DNA from: an uncultured Bacillota bacterium | GTDB lineage: Bacteria > Bacillota > Clostridia > Christensenellales > Borkfalkiaceae | DNA: 58,037 bases | NCBI GenBank assembly: GCA_949287815.1 | Contig: CASEHS010000008.1 | Span: 1-58,037 of the forward strand | Direction: 5' to 3' | Shown here: positions 40,052-51,765 of the stretch, in pieces | Layout of the letters: each line of letters opens with the position of its first letter | Position numbering within the stretch: the first letter of the stretch is position 1 | Made by a program: the position numbers and the translations under genes | Notes under the pieces: model-generated | Told to the model about the DNA's origin: nothing | The model's database searches: none | The model's input: only the letters and a program-made list of their open reading frames with translations

Positions 40052-40846
40052 TTAATGTTCCTTAATGCAATGACGAGGGCATTTTGCCACACAAGTCATA
40101 CAACCCGTACACTTGGTATAATCGATCTTCGGAAGGTCATTTACCATTGTTATGGCACCTTCGGGGCAATTTTTTGCACAGATACCGCAAGCAATACAAC
40201 CATTCTTGCAAAGTTCCATAACATCTTTGCCCTTGCCGTGATTGGAGCAAGCTATATAAACTTTTGCGCTCTTGGGAATACGCTCGATAATGCCTTTCGG
40301 ACAGTTAGAAATACACACACCGCAGGAAACACACTTTTCTTTATTTACAACGGAATAGCCGTTATCGCCCACATCGATCGCACCGTAGGCACAAACGTCT
40401 GCACAAGTCTTTTTTCCGATACAGCCTACGGGACAAGCCTTGATCCCGCCGGCGATCAACTCGCAGGAAGCACAGTTTCCGTAACCCTGATATTCGTATT
40501 TATTGTAACAAGCATTTCCGCCGCAGCAATGAACAACGGCAACAGTCTCTTCCCCGATCTCCCCGCCGCCGAGGATCTCTGCAATTTTTTCCTTATTTTC
40601 CTTGGATGTTGCCCTGCAATCGGAAAGTTTGGCTTCACCCTTTACGAGAGCCTCCGCAAACTGGGCACAGCCTGCTTTACCGCAGCCGCCGCAGTTGGAT
40701 TTGGCAAGGAGGTTTTCCACCTTTTCCGTGCGCTCGTCTTTTTTGATCGCAAATACATTGGAACAGATGACGAGAATGATCCCGAATACCAATGCGATGG
40801 CGAGCATGATACCGCCCGCAAGAAGCACCTGAATAAAATTATCCAT
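40052..40846 (-). CDS. rnfB: Rnf complex subunit RnfB (polyferredoxin)
   Basis: 264 residues. One N-terminal membrane helix, then the four-Cys Fe-S domain (CGGCGKAGCAQFAE), CASCELI, and three ferredoxin-like sites (CVSCGVCISNCP, CIACGICAKNCP, CTGCMTCVAKCP). RnfB accepts electrons from reduced ferredoxin on the cytoplasmic side and passes them into the membrane part. Last Rnf gene of the cluster; order C-D-G-E-A-B is the usual clostridial one. Confidence 0.97.
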   Translation of the reverse strand: MDNFIQVLLAGGIMLAIALVFGIILVICSNVFAIKKDERTEKVENLLAKSNCGGCGKAGCAQFAEALVKGEAKLSDCRATSKENKEKIAEILGGGEIGEETVAVVHCCGGNACYNKYEYQGYGNCASCELIAGGIKACPVGCIGKKTCADVCAYGAIDVGDNGYSVVNKEKCVSCGVCISNCPKGIIERIPKSAKVYIACSNHGKGKDVMELCKNGCIACGICAKNCPEGAITMVNDLPKIDYTKCTGCMTCVAKCPRHCIKEH

Positions 40847-40852
40847 ATTCCG

Positions 40853-41440
40853 TTACCCCGCTAAAATACCTGCAAAACCAGCAAACGCCATTGCCATGAT
40901 CGCCGCCGTAACGAGCGTGATCGGGAAACCTTTAAAGCATTTGGGGATATCCGCCCTGTCCGACTTCAAACGCACACAGGCAAGCAATACGATCGCAAAC
41001 AGAAATCCTACGCCCGTTGCAACCGACACGCCGAACGTATAAGCAAAATTATAACTGTTGAACACCACTGCCGCGTTTGCCGTACCGAGTATGGCGCAGT
41101 TCGTTGTGATCAGAGGCAGATAAACGCCGAGCGCGCTGTAAAGCGTGGGAGAATATCTCTTTACTACCATTTCCGTGATCTGTACAAGACTTGCGATCAC
41201 GAGAATAAACGCCATCGTATACAGAAAATCCAGTTCCAACGGCACTAAAATGAAATTATAGACGAGATAGGTAAATACCGACGAAATAGCCATGACAAAG
41301 ATGACCGCAAAGCCCATACCTGCCGCACTGGAAATTTTCTTGGAAACCCCGAGGAAAGGACAAATCCCCTGATACTGGGAAAGAACGATATTATTGGAAA
41401 TGATCGCGGCAAACATCAAAGATATGATAGAAGTTGTCAT
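40853..41440 (-). CDS. rnfA: Rnf complex subunit RnfA
   Basis: 195 residues, six membrane helices. The conserved stretches NNIVLSQYQGICPFLGVS and ITTNCAILGTA contain the Cys residues that, with RnfE, hold a 2Fe-2S cluster inside the membrane. Its start overlaps the rnfE stop by four bases. Confidence 0.97.
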   Translation of the reverse strand: MTTSIISLMFAAIISNNIVLSQYQGICPFLGVSKKISSAAGMGFAVIFVMAISSVFTYLVYNFILVPLELDFLYTMAFILVIASLVQITEMVVKRYSPTLYSALGVYLPLITTNCAILGTANAAVVFNSYNFAYTFGVSVATGVGFLFAIVLLACVRLKSDRADIPKCFKGFPITLVTAAIMAMAFAGFAGILAG

Positions 41441-42114
41441 TTCACAGCCTCCCCTTCAAGTCCTTCGACCTTCCCTTCGGAAAGGGGCAGGACCTGTTCT
41501 TTTAATTTTTGCTTGCGCTCATTGGTTTTCTGAATTACGAAATTGAAAAGCGCCATAAGGCATCCGAATACGATAAATCCGAACGCACTCGCACCCGTTC
41601 CCTCCATAACGGGAAAACCGGGTATCTTTATTCCTGCAAACGATCCGCCCGCAAAAAATTCACGGACAAGGCCGATCAGGCAAAGCGCACCAGTAAATCC
41701 TATTCCGATAGAAACGCCGTCAAGCACGCTGTACAGGGGTTTATTGCAGGACGCAAAACTCTCCGCCCGCGCAAGAATAATGCAGTTGACAACGATCAGT
41801 GCAATAAAAGTCTTCATCGTATCGTAAAGATCGGGAAGAAATTTCTGCATGACCATCTGCACTATAATGACAAACGTAGAAATGATAACTATATAGCAAG
41901 GAATTCTCACTTTGTCTGGTATCAGGTTGCGTAAAAGGCTGACAAACAAATTTGAGAAAATCAGCACAAAAGTGGTGGCAAGCCCCATCGCGAACGCCTG
42001 AGAAAGGCTCGTTGTCATTGCGATCGTGGGACAAGTACCAAGCACAAGCACAAAAGTCGGGTTGTTCTTGATAATGCCGCCGAGAAATGTTTCTTTTAAT
42101 TTCGACCTATCCAT
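41437..42114 (-). CDS. rnfE: Rnf complex subunit RnfE
   Basis: 225 residues, six membrane helices, with NPTFVLVLGTCPTIAMT and IVVNCIILARAE, the paired motifs matching those of RnfA. Forms the inverted-topology partner of RnfA. A charged C-terminal tail of about 30 residues is cytoplasmic. The start overlaps rnfG by eight bases. Confidence 0.97.
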   Translation of the reverse strand: MDRSKLKETFLGGIIKNNPTFVLVLGTCPTIAMTTSLSQAFAMGLATTFVLIFSNLFVSLLRNLIPDKVRIPCYIVIISTFVIIVQMVMQKFLPDLYDTMKTFIALIVVNCIILARAESFASCNKPLYSVLDGVSIGIGFTGALCLIGLVREFFAGGSFAGIKIPGFPVMEGTGASAFGFIVFGCLMALFNFVIQKTNERKQKLKEQVLPLSEGKVEGLEGEAVK

Positions 42115-42658
42115 TGCTCTTTCCTCCGACTTTCGTATTGTAGTAAGTTACGGCAGCATCGATCGCATTACGAACTGCGGTGGAACTCATTGTCGCACCC
42201 GATACAAGATCGACCGATGAAGGTTTTAACGTAGCGACTTCCTTACCTACAAAGTTATCATAAAATTTTGCTTTTTCCAGCTCACTCATAAAAGTCTGCT
42301 GCTCGTAATCTCCCGGTGTGATCTTTGTGATCTTTTCATCCTTTATGAAAATATACACGGGAACTTTTTCGCCTTTATAGCCTCCGCCGCCCTTTGCAAG
42401 AAAGGCGTGTACTCCGTCTGTGGAAACCGCATAGTAGACGATCGTTCCGTTTGTTCCTTCCACTGCCGTCTCTTTTTCCACGATCATACTGCTGAACTCG
42501 CCCTCTGCGCCGCTTTCCTCTTTAAATCTGTCGTATGCCGACTGCAACGGATCCACATAAGTGAAAAGCCTTACCGCACCGAGAAGAAGTCCGCTCACAA
42601 GAGCGATCAGCGCAAGAACTAAAATACACTGTATTACCGATTTGGTTTTTGCTGTCAT
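42107..42658 (-). CDS. rnfG: Rnf complex subunit RnfG (FMN-binding)
   Basis: 183 residues: one N-terminal membrane anchor (residues ~8-32) and an outside FMN-binding domain (PF04205 type). The flavinylation motif is intact: VDLVSGATMSSTAV, where the Thr of SGAT carries FMN covalently after ApbE action. It overlaps the rnfD stop by four bases. This domain is the clear relative of the five repeats fused to RnfD upstream. Confidence 0.96.
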   Translation of the reverse strand: MTAKTKSVIQCILVLALIALVSGLLLGAVRLFTYVDPLQSAYDRFKEESGAEGEFSSMIVEKETAVEGTNGTIVYYAVSTDGVHAFLAKGGGGYKGEKVPVYIFIKDEKITKITPGDYEQQTFMSELEKAKFYDNFVGKEVATLKPSSVDLVSGATMSSTAVRNAIDAAVTYYNTKVGGKSNG

Positions 42659-45507
42659 GCCCGATCACCTCCCGCAAGGTCATATTCCCCGAAACATTCC
42701 AGTATCATTGCTTTGAGCGTAGTGTTTGTTCTCGTCGCAGAGGTCTGCGGATCGCCGGTTCCGAGATTTGTAAGTCCTTTGATCACTTCGGCCGTCTTTC
42801 CGATAAAGAAAGTCAATTCTGCGGTATAACCCATAGTACTCTGCTTAACGGGCTCAATAGTCAAAACCCTGCCATCTTTTATAACTACGATATAAGAAAG
42901 CGGCTGTTTATAATTATATTCCGAAAGATCGGCATATCCCGTAACGTAATAAGCATCGCCGCCAAACAAAGCCGAATTGTATTCTGCTCGAATATATGCC
43001 GCATCTTCCTTTAAAGTCATTCCGCCTGAAAGCATATCTTCCGCAAGGAAACATTCGAGTATCATTGCTTTGAGTGCGGTATTCGTCTTGGTTGCGGAAG
43101 TGTTCGGATCTCCTGTTCCTAAATCTGTAAGACCGCTGATCTCTTCGTAAGTCTTTCCGACAAAGAAAGAGAGTTCAGCCGTGTATTTTCCACTCTGCAT
43201 TATGGATTCTATGGAAGAAACTCTTCCTCCTTCCAGCATAACCATAAAGGCAAGTTTCTGTATTTTATCGGCATTAATCTCCACACTACCCGTAACAAAA
43301 TACGCACTTCCGCCGAACAGAGCAGAATCTGCCGCCGCCGAAATATAACTGAATCCCGCGGGAAGCGTTTTTGCTCCCGCAATCAGATCTTCTGCTATAA
43401 AACATTCAAGGATCATCGCTTTAAGCGTGATATTAACAGCGGAAATATTCGGATCCCCCGTATCGAGATTTGTAAGTTCTTTAATTGCCTGATAATTTTT
43501 TCCGACAAAGAAGGAAAGTTCTGCGGTATAATCCTCCGTACTCTGTTTAACAAGTACGATTTCGGATACTTTACCCTCTTTCAATACGATCACGAATGCG
43601 AGCGGTTGTGTATACGAAGAAGTAATTGCTGCTTGTCCGACTGCGAGATAAGCCCTTCCGTCGAAAAGTGCCGAGTCAGCTGCCGCCGAAAGATACTGGA
43701 ATCCCGCAGGAACGCTCAGAGCGTTTTTCTGGAAATCGGCTGCAAGGAAACATTCGAGAAGCATTTCTTTAAGAGCAACGTTGGTCTTTGTCGCGGATAC
43801 CACGCCGTCTCCCGAAACAGTCAGATCTTCAAGCGCATTGATCTCTTCATAAGTCTTTCCTACAAAGAAGGAAAGCTCCGCTTTATATCTTCCGCTTTGG
43901 GTTACGGGAAGCACTGAAAATACTTTATTCTCTTTGAGCCTTACAACATATTCCAACGGCTGAGTACGTTCGTCGTTGATTTTAAGTTCTGTCTTTACCG
44001 TAAACAGATCGTCGCCGCCAAAGCCCGCTTTAACATAGGAATCTATATAACTGAATCCGTTCGGAACGGTGTATTCTTTATTTTCGTAACCTGCATCGTT
44101 GATAGCACGGTAACATTCAAGCAGCATTTCTCTAAGCGAAGTATTGACTATCGTAGCCCCCGTCTGCATATCTCCTGCAGGTATCTCTTCGATTTCCGAA
44201 TAGGTCTTACCTTCAAACAGGGAAAGTTCCGCTTTATATTTTCCGCTCTGTTTTACAGGCGAAATATCTTTAACTGTATAGATCGAACCGATCGTCACAT
44301 TATATTCAACGTCCTGTCCGCCCGGAACGGAAAGAGAATCCTGAACATTGAAATAGAAATTGCCGCGGATATCTTTCTGCATAGACCGAACGTATTCATA
44401 AGACTCGGAAACGGGAATATTTTCCCTCCTTGTAAGTCTTGTATATTCCATCACGGGCGCAGCGATTGCAAGCGTTGCCGCCATTGCGATACACAGCGCG
44501 CGCATCAGCCATTTCATGACCTGAGGCTTAGGTTTGCCGCTCTTTGTCATCTGACCGAACCGCACGGGTACAAGGAAGGTATCCATCGCAGGGACAAGAA
44601 GGTTCATAAACAGAATTGCAAGCGATACCCCTTCCGGATAAGTTCCGAATCTGCGGATAACAACAGTAAAAACACCGAGTCCGATCGCATACAGGATCCT
44701 GTTCATTCTCCATTTCGGAGAAGTCGCATAATCGGTCGCCATAAAAAATGCCGCAAACATGAGTCCGCCCGAAAAAAGCTGAGGCAGTATTTCACCAGCG
44801 CTCTGATAACACACAAGCACCATAAACGCGCTCGTAAGAAGATATACAAGCGGAATGCGCCAGTCGATCACGCGGCGGACCATCAGATATGCGCCGCCGA
44901 GAAGTATTGCAGGGACACAAGTTTCGCCGATACTTCCGCCCGTATAGCCGAAAAACATACTGAGCACGCCGCCCCAGTACCCTTCTTTACCGAACAAACC
45001 TGCAACGGAGCCGCCGCCAAGATAAGTCGCCGCTATCGTACCGTCCGAAATCAAATTGCCGGAAATATCCGCACCGATAAAGCGCGTCATTGCTCCGCCG
45101 TACGCGAGAAGCAGAAATACGCGTGCCGTAGCCGCAGGGTTTGCAAAGTTCTTGCCAAGGCCTCCGAACAGCATTTTCACGATCACGATCGCAAACACAC
45201 CGCCGATCACCGCAAGATACCAAGGAGCCCGCGCAGGCAGATTCAAGCCGAGAATAACGCCCGTTACGATCGCCGAAAGGTCTGTCGTAAACGGCTTTTT
45301 TCTTACTAAATTATAAACCTGCTCACTTACAAAACAAGTGACCGTACAAATGACTACCAGCAAAAGCGCATACAGTCCGAAATAAAGAGTACCAATGATC
45401 ACACAGGGCAAAAGCGCAATGATCACGTCGAGCATAATCCTGCGCGTATTCAAAGAGTCCAGTTTATGCGGAGAGATCGCTACATTATAATTTTTTATCT
45501 CAGCCAT
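42655..45507 (-). CDS. rnfD: RnfD fused to five FMN-binding-like repeats
   Basis: 950 residues, where RnfD is normally 310-350. Residues 1-320 are a standard RnfD/NqrB membrane core with LNLPARAPWYLAVIG and NFANPAATARVFLL; at the usual flavin site it has TIAAT (157-161) instead of SGAT. Residues ~329-351 form an additional membrane helix after a basic loop, followed by five repeats of ~118 residues (to 950). Each repeat has a VIVLKEGKV-type strand, AELSFFVGKTYEEI, then a motif at TGAT (449), VSAT (570), ISAV (688), TSAT (803), TSAT (922) leading into LKAMILECF. The repeats align with the RnfG FMN domain. Inferred role: an enlarged extracytoplasmic flavin module on Rnf. Confidence 0.93.
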   Translation of the reverse strand: MAEIKNYNVAISPHKLDSLNTRRIMLDVIIALLPCVIIGTLYFGLYALLLVVICTVTCFVSEQVYNLVRKKPFTTDLSAIVTGVILGLNLPARAPWYLAVIGGVFAIVIVKMLFGGLGKNFANPAATARVFLLLAYGGAMTRFIGADISGNLISDGTIAATYLGGGSVAGLFGKEGYWGGVLSMFFGYTGGSIGETCVPAILLGGAYLMVRRVIDWRIPLVYLLTSAFMVLVCYQSAGEILPQLFSGGLMFAAFFMATDYATSPKWRMNRILYAIGLGVFTVVIRRFGTYPEGVSLAILFMNLLVPAMDTFLVPVRFGQMTKSGKPKPQVMKWLMRALCIAMAATLAIAAPVMEYTRLTRRENIPVSESYEYVRSMQKDIRGNFYFNVQDSLSVPGGQDVEYNVTIGSIYTVKDISPVKQSGKYKAELSLFEGKTYSEIEEIPAGDMQTGATIVNTSLREMLLECYRAINDAGYENKEYTVPNGFSYIDSYVKAGFGGDDLFTVKTELKINDERTQPLEYVVRLKENKVFSVLPVTQSGRYKAELSFFVGKTYEEINALEDLTVSGDGVVSATKTNVALKEMLLECFLAADFQKNALSVPAGFQYLSAAADSALFDGRAYLAVGQAAITSSYTQPLAFVIVLKEGKVSEIVLVKQSTEDYTAELSFFVGKNYQAIKELTNLDTGDPNISAVNITLKAMILECFIAEDLIAGAKTLPAGFSYISAAADSALFGGSAYFVTGSVEINADKIQKLAFMVMLEGGRVSSIESIMQSGKYTAELSFFVGKTYEEISGLTDLGTGDPNTSATKTNTALKAMILECFLAEDMLSGGMTLKEDAAYIRAEYNSALFGGDAYYVTGYADLSEYNYKQPLSYIVVIKDGRVLTIEPVKQSTMGYTAELTFFIGKTAEVIKGLTNLGTGDPQTSATRTNTTLKAMILECFGEYDLAGGDRA
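42658..44370 (-). repeat. Five tandem ~350-base repeats inside rnfD
   Basis: Coding repeats visible also as DNA, for example the repeated block around TCATTGCTTTGAG (42709 and 43063) and GAAAGTTCTGCGGTATA-like strings (42815, 43517). Repeats 3-5 (nearest the 3' end) are most alike; repeat 1 is most diverged and keeps the only canonical TGAT. This gradient suggests growth by recent duplication toward the C-terminus. Confidence 0.8.
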
Positions 45508-46793
45508 TATATGCCCTTCTCCTTGATCTTTTTCTTAGCCAGTTTCACGCTCTGAACGAGGAACCTCTTTGCAGGGCAGACATAAGAGCAACACCCGCAG
45601 CCGATACATGCTTCCGCGCCGTAATGCTTTGCTTCCTTATAATCTTTACTGAAAAGTGCTCTTTCGATAAATACGGGAGAAAGCCCCATCGGGCATGCCG
45701 AAACGCACTTACCGCAGCCGATACAAGGCTCTGCGGACTTGCTTTCGCATTCCGTTTCATCCAAAAACAATAAGGAAGACATTCCCTTTCCCGTACATAC
45801 TTTCAGCGAAAACACAGGCTCGCCCATCATAGGTCCGCCTGACACGATCCTTGCACAGTCCTCTTTTCCGTCGCAGAACTCTGCGATATCACGAAGAAGC
45901 GTACCGTTTTTCACCCAAATGTTACAAGGTTTGTCCACTGCTTTTCCGCTCACCGTCATGACTCGCTCATAACAGGGGGTATTTTCTTCCACCGCCTTAT
46001 AGATAGAAAACGCCGTGTGAATATTTACGACCACCACACCCGCGTCGGCAGGAAGTTTTCCTTCGGGAATCACACGCTTTGTGCAGCAATACACGAGCTG
46101 TTTTTCCGCGCCTTGCGGATATTTTGTCTTTAATGATTTTACGGTAATTTCTCCGCCGCAGGCTTCTTTTAAAACAGTGATTGCTTCGGGCTTGTTTTTC
46201 TCAACACCGATCACCGCGCGCTTTGCACCACAGGCAAGCATTGTAAATTTTATGCCCTGGATCAGTTCATGAGTATATTCTTTCATGATCCTGTAATCGC
46301 AGGTAATATAAGGCTCGCATTCTGCGCCGTTGATTACAAGCGTATCCACTTTACCCTCTTCGACGCCGAGTTTTACAGCGGTAGGGAAAGTTGCGCCGCC
46401 CATACCGACAATACCCGCTTCCGCTATTCTGCCGAGAACGCTCTCTCTCGAAATTTCCGAAAGCGGAGGCAAGGATACACTTTCATCCTTAAAATCGTTT
46501 TCGATCAGAATATGATCCCGTTTTTTGCCCGCAAGCGTAATATGCCCCACGACACCGCGAACCGTGCCCGAAACGGGAGAATATACATTCGCCGAAAGCC
46601 CCTTTGCGGCCTTTCCGATCAACTCACCGCGGCGAACATAGGCGCCCGACTCCACCACCGGTTCGGCAGCAACGCCGATATGCTGAGACAACGGAACATA
46701 TACCTGTTTAGGTTCCGGACCGCGCATGATCGGTTCTTCGGCGCTCAGATATTTGCACCCTTTCGGATGCACTCCGTTTGCAAAAGTAAACAA
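45507..46793 (-). CDS. rnfC: Rnf complex subunit RnfC
   Basis: 429 residues from TTG at 46793, preceded by GGGAGG; the protein then begins LFTFANGVHPKGCK like other RnfC, so longer starts are unlikely. It is the NADH-binding and FMN-containing peripheral subunit: GMGGATFPTAVKL and INGAECEPYITCDYRIM are the flavin/NADH region related to complex I NuoF. Two ferredoxin-type sites (CIGCGKCVSACP, CIGCGCCSYVCP) follow near the C-terminus. First gene of the operon behind the promoter at 46856-46884. Confidence 0.95.
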   Translation of the reverse strand: MFTFANGVHPKGCKYLSAEEPIMRGPEPKQVYVPLSQHIGVAAEPVVESGAYVRRGELIGKAAKGLSANVYSPVSGTVRGVVGHITLAGKKRDHILIENDFKDESVSLPPLSEISRESVLGRIAEAGIVGMGGATFPTAVKLGVEEGKVDTLVINGAECEPYITCDYRIMKEYTHELIQGIKFTMLACGAKRAVIGVEKNKPEAITVLKEACGGEITVKSLKTKYPQGAEKQLVYCCTKRVIPEGKLPADAGVVVVNIHTAFSIYKAVEENTPCYERVMTVSGKAVDKPCNIWVKNGTLLRDIAEFCDGKEDCARIVSGGPMMGEPVFSLKVCTGKGMSSLLFLDETECESKSAEPCIGCGKCVSACPMGLSPVFIERALFSKDYKEAKHYGAEACIGCGCCSYVCPAKRFLVQSVKLAKKKIKEKGI

Positions 46794-46855
46794 CTGAAAA
46801 AGCCTCCCTGATAACACCTTTGCCGTTAAATTTTTTATACGGCAATAACGTCCAT

Positions 46856-46884
46856 ATTTTACCATTTTTTTAATAATTTGTAAA
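46856..46884 (-). promoter_or_regulatory. rnf operon promoter
   Basis: TTTACA (46879-46884), 17-base spacer, TAAAAT (46856-46861) on the minus strand. An inverted repeat TTGCCGT/ACGGCAA (46820-46845) sits in the leader, between promoter and the rnfC ribosome site. Confidence 0.6.
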
Positions 46885-46955: not shown

Positions 46956-47372
46956 TCACATACCTTCTTTTGCAGATTTTTCTTTTTTGCCTGCATTTTT
47001 TTGAGCCAAAACACTCTTTAAACCTGTCCGAAGCTGAAAAACAGACAAAGCGCAGAGAAAAATCCCGAATGCAATGCGCAAGCCGTTTTTCGGCAAAGCA
47101 GGCACGAATATTCCTCCGATCACCGAAAACAATACGGCTGGCGGAATCATCCATTGTGTACCGCGAGGCTGCAAAAGTTTATTTGACGCATGCACTTTCA
47201 GGGAAAGTATCGCCATGGGCAAAAATGAAAACAAATTTACCGACTGCGCCAGTTTCTGTTCCACTCCGCAAAACATTGTCAAAATCGGGATCAGCACCGT
47301 TCCTCCGCCCATTCCCATACCGCCGAGGATCCCACCGACCAGTCCCGCCGTAAGATAAACTATAAACCGCAT
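46956..47372 (-). CDS. Half-size TSUP (TauE/SafE) membrane protein, second of pair
   Basis: 138 residues, four hydrophobic segments. The N-terminal GGILGGMGMGGGTVLIPIL is the TauE/SafE glycine-rich motif that occurs once per half in full-length (about 250-residue) exporters. Here each half has its own gene; this one and the next would pair to form one carrier for sulfite, organosulfonates or similar anions. Short Lys-rich tail. Starts 22 bases after the partner. Confidence 0.85.
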   Translation of the reverse strand: MRFIVYLTAGLVGGILGGMGMGGGTVLIPILTMFCGVEQKLAQSVNLFSFLPMAILSLKVHASNKLLQPRGTQWMIPPAVLFSVIGGIFVPALPKNGLRIAFGIFLCALSVFQLRTGLKSVLAQKNAGKKEKSAKEGM

Positions 47373-47394
47373 TGACCAATTCTCCTTTTATTTT

Positions 47395-47757
47395 TTAAAA
47401 TATCATTCTCAACCCTGCCGCAAACATTACGAGCGAAAACACGATTGTTGCCCAACCGTCAGAAAAACCGTTGAGAAGAACCGCACCCGTAAATCCGCCG
47501 AACAATACCCCGACGCTCACTGCCGTAAAAAGTTCTGCAGCAAAATATCCGTTTACCAAATACACTATCGCGCTCGCCAAACTGACAGGCAGGATCACAA
47601 GAATGGCAGTAGCATGCGCCACCCTTGCCGGTTTTGAAAGAATGGAGCTGAGAAAAGGCACAACCACCATTCCTCCTCCGCCCCCGAAGATACCGTTCAA
47701 CACCCCTGTAACCGTGCCAGCAGAAACCAATAAAAATTTTTCTTTGATATTTTTCAT
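47395..47757 (-). CDS. Half-size TSUP (TauE/SafE) membrane protein, first of pair
   Basis: 120 residues, four hydrophobic segments with GVLNGIFGGGGGMVVVPFL near the N-terminus, again a single TSUP half. Adjacent and same-strand to the other half; dimerisation of the two is expected. Divergent from the large surface lipoprotein gene. Confidence 0.85.
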   Translation of the reverse strand: MKNIKEKFLLVSAGTVTGVLNGIFGGGGGMVVVPFLSSILSKPARVAHATAILVILPVSLASAIVYLVNGYFAAELFTAVSVGVLFGGFTGAVLLNGFSDGWATIVFSLVMFAAGLRMIF

Positions 47758-47919: not shown

Positions 47920-48009
47920 AAGATAGTACGATTTTCCATGAAGAACCCGCGTTCTTTATGGTTTGCGGTTTTTAATCGCTCAGAAACAATAACTGCGAAA
48001 AGGTGTTAT

Positions 48010-51000
48010 ATGGCAAAGAACAAACAACTGACCAAAACAAGAATTACTACCTGGATTCTGGCATTCGTTATGCTGCTTTCCGCCTGTACGCTGATTTTTA
48101 CGGCGTGCGGAAAATCGTCCACCGATGACGAATCTGAGGACGACAAGAAAAAAACGGATACCCAGACCTTCGCAAATGCGGACTTCGAATATTTCGAAGA
48201 CAGCGACGGTTCTTATATGATCGCTACTCCAGACAGCTGGACAAAAGCGGCCGATTCCAACTCTAGCGGAAGCTCGGCAAGTTCTTCCACTGCAAAATCG
48301 GGAACAGTCGACACTTCCGTTAACTGGGGTGAAAAATATCTTTATGCTCGCAATACCTATGAAGAGTATAAAGATGAAGACGATGAAGACAAGCTTCCCG
48401 AGGAATATTATACCGATATCGACAACGATTATGATATTCCCGGCTGGGATCTTGCAAAAGCCGCTTATGACAAAAATGAGGAGAATGAAGAAGATTTCAC
48501 TCTTGACAACCTCAAAGCGGAAGACATTGACAAGGTCAACCCCGGCACACCTTTTAAAAAGGCGGGAGAAGAAGATAAAGATAACGGTACGCACGTTCTG
48601 ATGGTGCATAACTATCGTACAAACGAATACGGTACCGCCACGAAATACACAGCTACTTCAATCACCCTTGCAGCTAACACGAGCGCTAAATTCTCCGTAT
48701 GGGTAAAAACTTACGGTATGTCTTATGCCGAAGGTGAGACCGTAAACGGCGATCGCGGCGCATTCATCAGAGTTACGAATACCGTAGGCGGCGCATCTCA
48801 GGATCCCCTTACGATCAAAAATATCGACACCGAAAAACTGAATCCCGAAGGGCAGAATAACGGCTGGGTACAGTATACCGTATATTTAAAAGCTTCCTCT
48901 TATGCAACCACTACTTTCAACGTGGTTCTCGGACTCGGTGAGCAGGTAGAAAGCGCAACAGCAAACAAATACGGTTATGTGCAGGGATATGCATTCTTTG
49001 ATGCTCTCACGTATGAAGTTCTGACCAACGAAGAATATGCAACGCAGACCGCTGCACTCCCCGACTCCGTAAAGACCGAGCTCAATCTTTTCTCTTCGGA
49101 TGACAGTAAGAAATTTGACGCCGTATCCGATGCTAATAAAACAAATCGTGCTTTTGCACTTGATCTTGATGTTCTCAAAACGGATACACAGACGCTTACC
49201 TTGAACAACGTAAAGGTAAACGGCACTACCGAAAAACAGGATGGTATCGCTTACGGAATCGATAAATACCTCGGCAATGCAGCGGAAAATCTTAAAGACG
49301 CAAACGATGCTTCAAGATCCGGTATGACAACGGCAAGCAATGTTGCAGACGGTAATTATCCCGCTTCCGTACAAAAGGCTTTCAAAAATTATCCTTTCAA
49401 TAATGAAAACCTTCTCATGATTTACAGCGGAAAAGGCGCACCCTACACTACAGAAGTTACGAACAGCAATCTTACTTCCAATCTATTTGAAGTCGGAAAA
49501 GATGAAAGCCTGCTGATCAGTTTCTGGGTCAAAACTTCTGAAATGAACGGCGGCACGGGCGCAACGATCAATCTTGTAAATTACGAAACCAAAAACACCA
49601 TCGGTGCAGTAGATACCACAACACTTGACACAGTTGACCTCAAAGACGACAGAGGCACGGTCAAAGAAGATCTTTTTGACGGCTGGCAGCAATGTTATTT
49701 CTTTGTAACGAATGACACTGATTCTTCCATTACTTTCACAATGCAGTTCTCATTCGGCCCCACTACCCTTTCCGGTACGACGTTGTCTTCTTACAGCGAC
49801 GGATTTGCGGCTTTTGCGAACTTTGCTTATACATCCCTTGAAGAGGAAGAACTCAATATCGTTTCCACTGGTTCCTATGCCGTAAAAGCGACTTTGGCTG
49901 AAGATGCTGACAACGCGGATTCTTCCGTAGTATTCGACACCCCCGCTTATACAGGCAGCACCGAAGGCAACAGCGATATCGAAAAAGGTTTTGCAGATCT
50001 TGCAAATTACAACGGCGTATACGGCGATTCCAAATATGTAGGCGGAGACAGCTATACGACCGATCCTGAAAAGAATCAGATCAACTCCTACGAAAATGCA
50101 GGTCTGATCAATAAAAAATATGCAACAAACTATAACGGACAGCCTTGGCTGACTTGTGTTTTGGAAAATTACAGCAGTATTACCGATGCTCTCAATCCCG
50201 GAAATGATTGGTGGTCGACCGTATTCGGAAACAACTGCACGCAACCCCTTCTGATCGTTAATCCCGATACAGTTTCTGATGCTTACGGATTTATCGGAAA
50301 ATCGACAAGTATTTCGACTTCTTCCTATACCACAGTCAGTGTACGCGTTAAGCTCAGTGCCAATGCAACGGCTTATGTATATCTTATTGATACAACCGAA
50401 CCCGAAGATGAAAACGAAGTCATGTACAAAAACGGTCTTTCCTACTCTGCGGGTGTATCTTACAGATATGACGAAAACGGAAATGTAGTCTTGAAAGACC
50501 CCGAAGCGGATGACTTCAACGAAGATACCGATATCCTCTTCTATAAGCAAGACAACGGTCTGTGGGCAGATTCCGAAAATTACACCGGTTCTGATTTCTA
50601 TGCTAACCTTGCCAACTACGAAAAGGATAAAGACGGAAATCTCACCGACGGCAACGACAATATTATTTATTATCTGCACAACGACACCTACTATCGTTAC
50701 TATGATGAAGAAAAAGAAACTTATAGCGTAGCGGTAAAAGATTTCACCTCTTACTCAGACGCAGATAAAGTTGCTCAGGCCACATTGCAGAATCTTACAA
50801 ACAAAGACAAGGTTCTTGTACAGAAAATCGAAGGCACACCTGAAAATGCAAACAAATGGATCTATGTAAACTTCTATATTGCAAACGGTTCTGTTGAAGC
50901 CAAGAATTACAGATTGGAAGTTTGGAACGGTTCCAGAGACAACACCGATAAAATGGAAGCAGCCAGCTATGTTGCATTTGACGGAGTGACTTATGACGCA

Positions 51001-51765
51001 TTGACAGCCGATACGTTCAACGCCCTGATCGAAGAAGGAATGGAATCTCTCGGCAAAAAGGGTAATTTCGCGGACGGAAAAACTTACAATACTGTAAAAG
51101 AAATTCAGGACGCATACAATGCTTCACCTGACAGCTTTATTACCGAAACGGAAAATAAAGCATCTCTCGTTTATTATCACTTCTCCCTCTTTGACGATAA
51201 GGCATATGCCCCCTACGACAAAGATTATGATGAAGACGAAACAGGCGATCCTTATGCAGACTATACTGCAAGTTCTTATTCGGATACAGTAGCTTACCTG
51301 CGCTTTGACAGCTCCCTTGCCGATAATAAGACAGGTGTTATCGAATACAACACATTCGTAAATTACGGAGCAAGCGAAATCAGCGTTGCAATCTCCACAG
51401 ACGATGGCGAAGAAGAAACAACGACGCCTTCCGATACAAACAATGTAAACCTGTGGCTCCTGATTCCTTCCATCGCACTTGCTGCGGCATTGTTCTTCAC
51501 TTTGATCACAATGTTGGTCAAGAAACTTCTTGCCAACATCAAACGCAACAAAGTACGTTACACACCTCAGTACAATGCTAAGCGTAAACGCTATATCAGG
51601 AAACTGAGATTGGAAGAATCCGAACAGGATGAAGACGCAACAGCACCCGATGTTCTTCCCGATGAAGATGAAATCACTGAAGAAGACATTTACAAAGTCG
51701 AATCAGAAGATCAGTCTGAAAGCACGGAAAACTCGGATCCCGAAAAAACGGATGAAGAAAAATAA
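48010..51765 (+). CDS. Large surface lipoprotein with C-terminal membrane anchor
   Basis: 1251 residues from ATG 48010 (AAAAGG six bases upstream). An N-terminal signal ends with two possible lipobox cysteines (LLSAC26, FTAC33). The outside part is acidic and Ser/Thr/Asn/Tyr-rich with three related beta-sandwich-like domains: around 170-350 (TSAKFSVWVKTYGM, YAFFDALTYEVL), 440-630 (ESLLISFWVKTSEM, FAAFANFAYTSL), and 700-1010 (TTVSVRVKL, VAFDGVTYDAL). Such modules resemble carbohydrate-binding or adhesion domains, unproven. A membrane helix (1148-1170) is followed by an ~80-residue tail, first basic then acidic. Anchoring at both ends is unusual. Function unknown. Confidence 0.8.
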   Translation: MAKNKQLTKTRITTWILAFVMLLSACTLIFTACGKSSTDDESEDDKKKTDTQTFANADFEYFEDSDGSYMIATPDSWTKAADSNSSGSSASSSTAKSGTVDTSVNWGEKYLYARNTYEEYKDEDDEDKLPEEYYTDIDNDYDIPGWDLAKAAYDKNEENEEDFTLDNLKAEDIDKVNPGTPFKKAGEEDKDNGTHVLMVHNYRTNEYGTATKYTATSITLAANTSAKFSVWVKTYGMSYAEGETVNGDRGAFIRVTNTVGGASQDPLTIKNIDTEKLNPEGQNNGWVQYTVYLKASSYATTTFNVVLGLGEQVESATANKYGYVQGYAFFDALTYEVLTNEEYATQTAALPDSVKTELNLFSSDDSKKFDAVSDANKTNRAFALDLDVLKTDTQTLTLNNVKVNGTTEKQDGIAYGIDKYLGNAAENLKDANDASRSGMTTASNVADGNYPASVQKAFKNYPFNNENLLMIYSGKGAPYTTEVTNSNLTSNLFEVGKDESLLISFWVKTSEMNGGTGATINLVNYETKNTIGAVDTTTLDTVDLKDDRGTVKEDLFDGWQQCYFFVTNDTDSSITFTMQFSFGPTTLSGTTLSSYSDGFAAFANFAYTSLEEEELNIVSTGSYAVKATLAEDADNADSSVVFDTPAYTGSTEGNSDIEKGFADLANYNGVYGDSKYVGGDSYTTDPEKNQINSYENAGLINKKYATNYNGQPWLTCVLENYSSITDALNPGNDWWSTVFGNNCTQPLLIVNPDTVSDAYGFIGKSTSISTSSYTTVSVRVKLSANATAYVYLIDTTEPEDENEVMYKNGLSYSAGVSYRYDENGNVVLKDPEADDFNEDTDILFYKQDNGLWADSENYTGSDFYANLANYEKDKDGNLTDGNDNIIYYLHNDTYYRYYDEEKETYSVAVKDFTSYSDADKVAQATLQNLTNKDKVLVQKIEGTPENANKWIYVNFYIANGSVEAKNYRLEVWNGSRDNTDKMEAASYVAFDGVTYDALTADTFNALIEEGMESLGKKGNFADGKTYNTVKEIQDAYNASPDSFITETENKASLVYYHFSLFDDKAYAPYDKDYDEDETGDPYADYTASSYSDTVAYLRFDSSLADNKTGVIEYNTFVNYGASEISVAISTDDGEEETTTPSDTNNVNLWLLIPSIALAAALFFTLITMLVKKLLANIKRNKVRYTPQYNAKRKRYIRKLRLEESEQDEDATAPDVLPDEDEITEEDIYKVESEDQSESTENSDPEKTDEEK

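Follow-up and report, generated by a model that had tools for sequence, protein, structure and literature searches.

The window analysed here, a stretch of 58,037 nucleotides from an uncultured bacterium of the gut genus Candidatus Borkfalkia (assembly GCA_949287815.1, contig CASEHS010000008.1), which the NCBI taxonomy places in the Christensenellales, contains a complete rnf operon on its minus strand, in which the gene for the membrane subunit RnfD is prolonged by five tandem repeats that resemble the flavin mononucleotide (FMN)-binding domain of RnfG. The genes follow the order rnfC-D-G-E-A-B, and adjacent ones touch, overlap or lie a few bases apart. All on the same strand, they are rnfC (45507..46865; TIGR01945, E-value (E) 5.8e-141), the rnfD open reading frame of 950 residues (42655..45507; PF03116 and TIGR01946), rnfG (42107..42658), rnfE (41437..42114; PF02508, NF009070 and TIGR01948), rnfA (40853..41440; PF02508 and TIGR01943) and rnfB (40052..40846; TIGR01944 and NF041836). 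The product of rnfG is a separate subunit of 183 residues with one FMN_bind domain (PF04205, E 1.7e-8) and the motif DLVSGAT, and is not of the multi-flavinylated RnfG type.

By its above-cut-off profile matches and its place in the operon, the long frame is RnfD: PF03116 covers residues 9-318 (E 4.2e-99, 332 bits against a cut-off of 27.7) and TIGR01946 residues 12-319 (263 bits against 207). Together with a Foldseek search of the full-length model (predicted local distance difference test (pLDDT) 75.6, predicted template modelling score (pTM) 0.50), which matched solved RnfD and NqrB chains and ranked 9eri_D, 7zc6_D and 8ahx_D first, these profiles mark residues 1-318 (44554..45507) as the ten-helix membrane core. 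Thr161 of this core (45025..45027), in the sequence DGTIAAT, is the predicted site of flavin attachment; all 50 of the aligned RnfD cores have Thr there, and the residue corresponds to Thr153 of C. tetanomorphum RnfD, which sits in DGVTTAT, and to Thr156 of A. woodii RnfD, which sits in DTVTTAT (position counted from the alignment). The latter carries covalent FMN in the published model, and the C. tetanomorphum paper reports an ultraviolet gel band for RnfG and not for RnfD. An unusual core site was found in 15 of the 50 cores, where Pro replaces the Ala immediately before the flavinylated Thr (A-P-T).

The tail opens with the basic stretch TKSGKPKPQVMKWLMR, which is followed by a hydrophobic segment (residues 330-348, mean hydropathy 1.67) that forms part of a helix spanning residues 329-359 in the full-length model (44431..44523). 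By analogy with the published RnfD structures of C. tetanomorphum and A. woodii, this would be an eleventh membrane helix after a basic loop, from which we deduce that the repeats face outwards and share the side of the membrane on which RnfG lies. An earlier reading made from the sequence alone (hereafter the sequence-only reading) had described a 950-residue RnfD with a normal core, a basic loop and a new membrane helix, and the open reading frame, both profiles, hydropathy and the model all agree with it. A. woodii RnfG (9eri_G) also appears among the Foldseek matches of the full-length model, at rank 39 (probability 0.99, E 0.18, 187 columns); the part that aligned is presumably the tail.

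Five repeats of about 110 residues each, with a start-to-start spacing of 115-118, make up the rest of the protein. Repeat 1 (residues 372-477; 44077..44394) has the motif DMQTGAT with Thr452 and an altered loop, QSGKY; repeat 2 (487-598; 43714..44049) has DGVVSAT with Thr573 and the altered loop QSGRY; repeat 3 (605-714; 43366..43695) has DPNISAV, in which the flavinylation Thr is lost (Val691); repeat 4 (721-831; 43015..43347) has DPNTSAT with Thr806 and again the altered loop QSGKY. The best preserved is repeat 5 (838-950; 42658..42996), with DPQTSATRT, Thr925, the loop QSTMGY and the stretch FIGK, where the only change is from Gly to Ser. The motifs lie exactly where the sequence-only reading had placed them, at 449 (TGAT), 570 (VSAT), 688 (ISAV), 803 (TSAT) and 922 (TSAT); its wording of a TSAT or TGAT motif in each repeat needs correction for repeat 3, with ISAV and no Thr. 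Each window repeat also holds one Cys (465, 586, 702, 819 and 938; 42658-44394) in its last helix (ECF), kept in 64 of 66 repeats.

Standard domain searches pass over this tail. A search against PF04205 (FMN_bind), the check proposed along with the sequence-only reading, gave no match to the window RnfD at E<=1, and the tail stays below the Pfam gathering cut-off. What it does match are Pfk_N (residues 647-711, E 1.2e-4, 22.8 bits against a cut-off of 26.8, with no single stretch passing), SteA-like_C (330-359, E 0.069) and, in NCBIfam, LolA2_flexi (863-893, E 0.0039, far under the cut-off), all of which we judged to be chance matches. When 28 repeats were scanned singly, PF04205 matched seven of them at E<=10 (best E 8.8e-4) and was the sole Pfam family to match more than one. 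A hidden Markov model (HMM) of 40 single-domain RnfGs, 34 from the genus and six from other families of the order, from which frames longer than 320 residues and weaker matches were left out, gave at least 5 bits to 64 of 66 repeats (two cut-off repeats were not scored); among 1320 shuffled copies 10 reached that score, and among 66 reversed ones none did. Window repeats 1-5 obtained 3.3, 8.8, 9.7, 11.6 and 11.6 bits, so that repeat 1, at 3.3 bits, does not rise above the shuffles by this HMM alone. With hhalign, the repeats aligned to the RnfG of the genus at 70% (P 5.2e-6) and to the RnfG of other families at 65% (P 8e-6), whereas the controls (RnfE, RnfA, RnfB, RnfC, a HAD protein and the RnfD core) stayed at <=0.1% (P >=0.33). 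A profile of the repeats, built from same-genus sequences with the window's five included, matched each window repeat at E 8.6e-31 or better. It also matched weakly a 183-residue frame that is the RnfG of G010, a 198-residue downstream frame in G542 (both genomes of the genus; E 5.7e-4 and 9.3e-4) and, in part, two proteins of the order whose site reads DAISGAT or DAVTDAT (G215, E 9.9e-4; G226, E 7.2e-4), which appear FMN_bind-like as read from their sequence rather than from a Pfam run.

The predicted secondary structure fits an FMN_bind fold. A fold model of repeat 5, built from 51 repeats (pLDDT 87.5, pTM 0.84), was compared by Foldseek with 350,542 PDB chains; the two chains of CbFMN4 domain 1 took the top two ranks and SaFMN3 domain 2 came ninth, with E of 0.33-1.1, weak values that are not significant alone. 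In the full-length model, the last long helix of repeats 1-5 starts at 450, 570, 686, 804 and 923, that is, at the motif or at most two residues off, which parallels SaFMN3, NqrC and RnfG, for which a flavinylated Thr at the start of a helix has been reported (PMC10339131, PMC4348036, PMC9588780). The RnfG profile, the profile-profile alignment and the fold model thus agree, and support the identification of the repeats as putative divergent FMN_bind domains; the kinship with the RnfG domain proposed by the sequence-only reading is borne out by these and by the single-repeat PF04205 scans.

The positions expected to matter for flavin attachment are well kept in the repeat family. Counting from the site Thr, Asp at -6 is found in all 67 rows that reach the position, Ala at -1 in 66 of 66, and the Thr itself in 65 of 66, the exception being window repeat 3. 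Thr occupies position +2 in 60 of 66 repeats, the loop Thr is kept in 56 of 67 and the Lys of FxGK in 61 of 67. In NqrC, the loop Thr and the +2 Thr bind N5 and N3 of the flavin (PMC4348036), and by our own matching the repeat loop would correspond to the ETPG of that protein. The site Asp, Ala and Thr are among the most constant positions of the repeat set, in which mean column identity is 53%; one Gln, one Ser and one Cys position match them in constancy.

The tail is characteristic of a single genus. Our first same-genus sample comprised 37 genomes, 34 with RnfD, and all 34 carry the tail or at least its start: ten have one repeat, 15 have two, three have three, three have four, and only the window has five, while two tails (G024, G033) end at contig ends, for 68 repeats overall. 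Over the family, the repeat profile matched 37 of 398 genomes, all of them Candidatus Borkfalkia (37 of 40), and none of 358 in 17 other genera; the three genus genomes without a match (G008, G014, G025) also yielded no RnfD in the first sample. Rnf itself is common in the family, since PF03116 occurs in 67 genomes of other genera (87 of 161 family genomes in all). Further out, matches were found in four of 396 genomes over the order (two of the genus plus the weak G215 and G226), in two of 391 over the class (the window's own and G556, an HflX-like GTPase by reading of its sequence, taken as chance) and, over the phylum, in the window's own alone among 398. An assembly or gene-calling artefact, the refutation foreseen by the sequence-only reading, might have been suspected in a fragmented draft genome (94 contigs, 89.8% complete), the more so as the RnfD of one relative (G017, L036) is split over two reading frames and those of two others are truncated. 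Nevertheless, the recurrence of the tail in independent genomes and the divergence of the repeats from one another (repeats 1-4 are only 37-57% identical to repeat 5) argue that it is no artefact, and we give that explanation a practically negligible probability. A fusion of RnfC with RnfD, suggested by stop-to-stop frames of 909-1085 residues in three genomes, was also rejected in favour of open overlapping frames, because the RnfD start Met is kept and none of ten upstream stretches longer than 60 residues is RnfC-like at E<=10.

Within the genus, repeat number has changed at least 12 times on a quick tree of RnfD cores (33 genus cores plus four outgroup rows, 31 rows with known copy number, support lacking on 13 of 34 inner branches). 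Change in the array continues, because in G023 a 354-base unit has recently been duplicated, with six mismatches between the copies. RnfG frames of the genus are all shorter than 300 residues (34 of 34). Among 23 operons from sister genera, three chosen for long RnfD frames and 20 picked by hand across genera, the repeat profile matched none of the RnfD frames (314-498 residues), and the long RnfD frames seen in other genera (498, 461 and 435 residues) were discarded as tails of this kind for want of such a match. By contrast, 11 of the 23 have an RnfG frame longer than 320 residues (338-606, stop to stop), three of these long RnfGs weakly match the repeat profile (E 0.004-0.016) and two contain tandem TGATYSN units. 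It seems that RnfG has been lengthened in some genera of the family, and RnfD in Candidatus Borkfalkia; additions of domains on the outer side of Rnf are frequent in the family, for which we count the 11 sister operons as support, and a flavin string may have moved between subunits within it. Long RnfG-like frames of 702, 470, 452 and 406 residues, each with at least two [ST]GA[ST]-type matches, were also observed in other families of the order (L045, L043, L079 and L040).

In Rnf, electrons have been described as following a U-shaped path, from RnfB through the RnfA/E cluster, the FMN of RnfG, the FMN of RnfD and riboflavin to RnfC (PMC12174285, PMC11889175). Our best reading of the tail, which we regard as moderately probable, is that of an outward relay flavinylated by ApbE and fused to RnfD. 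On this view, the RnfD of this genus would have been extended by an eleventh membrane helix, followed by one to five RnfG-like FMN-binding domains that are exposed on the outside of the membrane next to a normal RnfG. ApbE would most likely place FMN on the Thr of D-x-x-x-[GS]-A-T in the intact repeats, at most four of the five here because repeat 3 reads ISAV. The domain nearest the membrane could swap electrons with the FMN bound to RnfG or to the RnfD core, and the other repeats could hand them on along the string towards the outside. The pump driven by ferredoxin and reduced nicotinamide adenine dinucleotide (NADH) would then have a side branch that leads to an acceptor within the cell wall or outside it. 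Considered separately, attachment of FMN to the repeat Thr by ApbE appears quite probable, and for the repeats' function as an outward relay the chances look evenly balanced. The genome encodes one ApbE (C5:51135-52007, 184.6 bits), apparently an extracytosolic lipoprotein judging by its VGC box, and ApbE is matched in 38 of the 40 genus genomes. At locus L002 (1351-3580), ApbE lies on a different contig from rnf and precedes, as judged from sequence, a small membrane-anchored protein and one resembling a Gx transporter. A bolder proposal, tentative and on the whole rather doubtful, is that of a branched Rnf throughout the genus, in which one to five flavins, bound covalently at a variant D-x-x-T-S-A-T site, would form an outward wire on RnfD and not on RnfG; the same ferredoxin pool could then be vented outside or used for ion pumping, the length of the wire would be evolving fast between species, and the wire would have moved between neighbouring subunits within the family.

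Several observations weigh against the relay, and some of them favour other explanations. At position -2, the repeats have Ser in 51 cases, Gly in 14 and Asn in one, Gly thus being lost in 52 of 66, and in a fumarate reductase, another ApbE substrate, a change of Gly to Ala left about 50% flavinylation (PMC12052999). The strict ApbE motif D-x-x-[ST]-G-A-[ST] fits only repeat 1 of the window's five; a motif that admits Ser in place of Gly also covers repeats 4 and 5; repeat 2 has Val for [ST] and repeat 3 has no Thr. Moreover, repeats 1, 2 and 4 have SGK or SGR for STMG, a shortened loop, and the same loop is altered in the first two repeats of the window's nearest relative (G005). The lost Gly, the missing Thr of repeat 3 and the shortened loops would suit flavin-free repeats with a structural role as spacer, wall anchor or docking arm. 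We consider this very unlikely, in view of the constancy of the site Asp, Ala and Thr and of the Ser that genuine sites in RnfG and RnfD can also have there: position -2 reads G28 S5 N1 in genus RnfGs (n=34) and G18 A17 S12 T2 E1 in RnfD cores (n=50; 34 of the genus, 16 of other families). Because Ser or Thr occurs there in genuine sites, Ser at -2 is, on these alignments, no sign of decay; the FMN-bearing Thr156 of A. woodii RnfD likewise has Thr and not Gly at -2. The description of the repeats as degenerate therefore fails for the family, with its near-invariant Asp, Ala and Thr (n=66), and is apt for window repeat 3 and for the flavin loop of repeats 1, 2 and 4; as read from the alignment, the window's species has kept its repeats less well than the genus as a whole, repeat 5 being the least changed.

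The remaining contrary points concern the relay's surroundings and the fold. No FMN_bind protein besides RnfG was found in the genome by PF04205 even at E<=10, and no acceptor partner was found with the three profiles searched (PF04205, PF00890 and the repeat profile). FAD_binding_2, considered as a possible outside reductase, matched at 11 places, of which the best, the only one inspected, is NadB-like, since it lies between nadA- and nadC-like genes. Ten relatives have a single repeat, too short for a long wire. To the weak fold E-values given above must be added that the repeat profile retrieved no FMN_bind chain from the PDB sequences; its matches there, one to a CAP repeat protein (E 8.3e-4, made up of low-scoring repeated pieces) and one to a hypothetical protein (E 0.33), were set aside. 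Repeats that carry FMN and act inside the Rnf cycle, either as additional RnfG-like shuttles on a tether or as a store of electrons between RnfG and RnfD, without any outlet to the outside, would account for the ten single repeats, placed like a second RnfG, and for the lack of an acceptor protein among the profiles searched; an RnfD-RnfG fusion in G046, with no other rnfG in the operon, further suggests that Rnf tolerates a tether of this kind. By contrast, arrays of up to five repeats, the repeated changes in copy number and the G023 duplication suggest that length is selected or tolerated, which would be odd for a precise shuttle, and we hold an internal shuttle to be unlikely.

Set beside known systems, the outward relay has precedents and differs from each of them. 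Meheust et al. (2021, eLife; PMC8238504) described multi-flavinylated RnfG in RNF clusters, a subset of them from Christensenellales, and proposed a second electron path to outside acceptors. Such complexes resemble the window Rnf in bearing several predicted extracytosolic FMN_bind domains; there, however, the string is on RnfG, whereas here RnfG is single-domain and the string follows an added helix on RnfD, with repeats that fall short of the PF04205 cut-off and a motif in which Ser replaces Gly. The long RnfGs of sister genera (L154, L155, L171, L174) belong to the same family, some have several GAT-type sites, and weak matches to the repeat profile occur in three of the 23 operons, but their extra domains follow RnfG and their RnfD is short and without repeats. 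Proteins of the CbFMN4/SaFMN3 type share tandem small FMN_bind domains, CbFMN4 domain 1 being the first fold match, at a weak E; unlike the tail, they are soluble, stand-alone, carry DxxxGAT motifs and are not part of a pump subunit. Two-subunit Nqr/Rnf-like complexes, for which one-way electron export has been proposed (PMC8238504, PMC11334425), share an RnfD-like membrane protein with an outer FMN_bind domain, although they have a cytosolic NAD-binding domain and here the rnfCDGEAB operon is kept. The fusion in G046 (L041 4212-5894, from another family of the order) likewise joins an RnfD core, an extra helix and one FMN_bind-like domain in one chain; its site is TGAT and its operon lacks a separate rnfG, while the tail described here is additional to rnfG. 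Among the matches listed in the open-licence literature, we found no report of FMN_bind domains on RnfD. The kind is known, as multi-flavinylated Rnf with the string on RnfG; new, as far as could be seen, are the subunit that carries it, the added helix, the variant motif and the series of lengths across the genus.

If the relay is real, a second Rnf subunit would be able to carry a multi-flavin string, and such strings could hide under standard domain cut-offs. One to five copies within one genus would offer a natural length series for testing multi-flavin proteins as wires, and the sister genera, with long RnfG and short RnfD, let the same question be asked on another subunit. A further prediction of this reading is that ApbE tolerates Ser in place of the motif Gly, in which case more proteins would count as predicted flavoproteins.

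Elsewhere in the window, no Rfam match was obtained. A protein of 1275 residues at 47938-51765, with no NCBIfam match at E<=1e-5, has a lipoprotein-like start and a hydrophobic stretch near its C-terminus, as judged from the sequence. Two adjoining small membrane proteins of 138 and 120 residues (46956-47757), likewise with no NCBIfam match at E<=1e-5, presumably resemble the halves of a TauE/SafE-type exporter.

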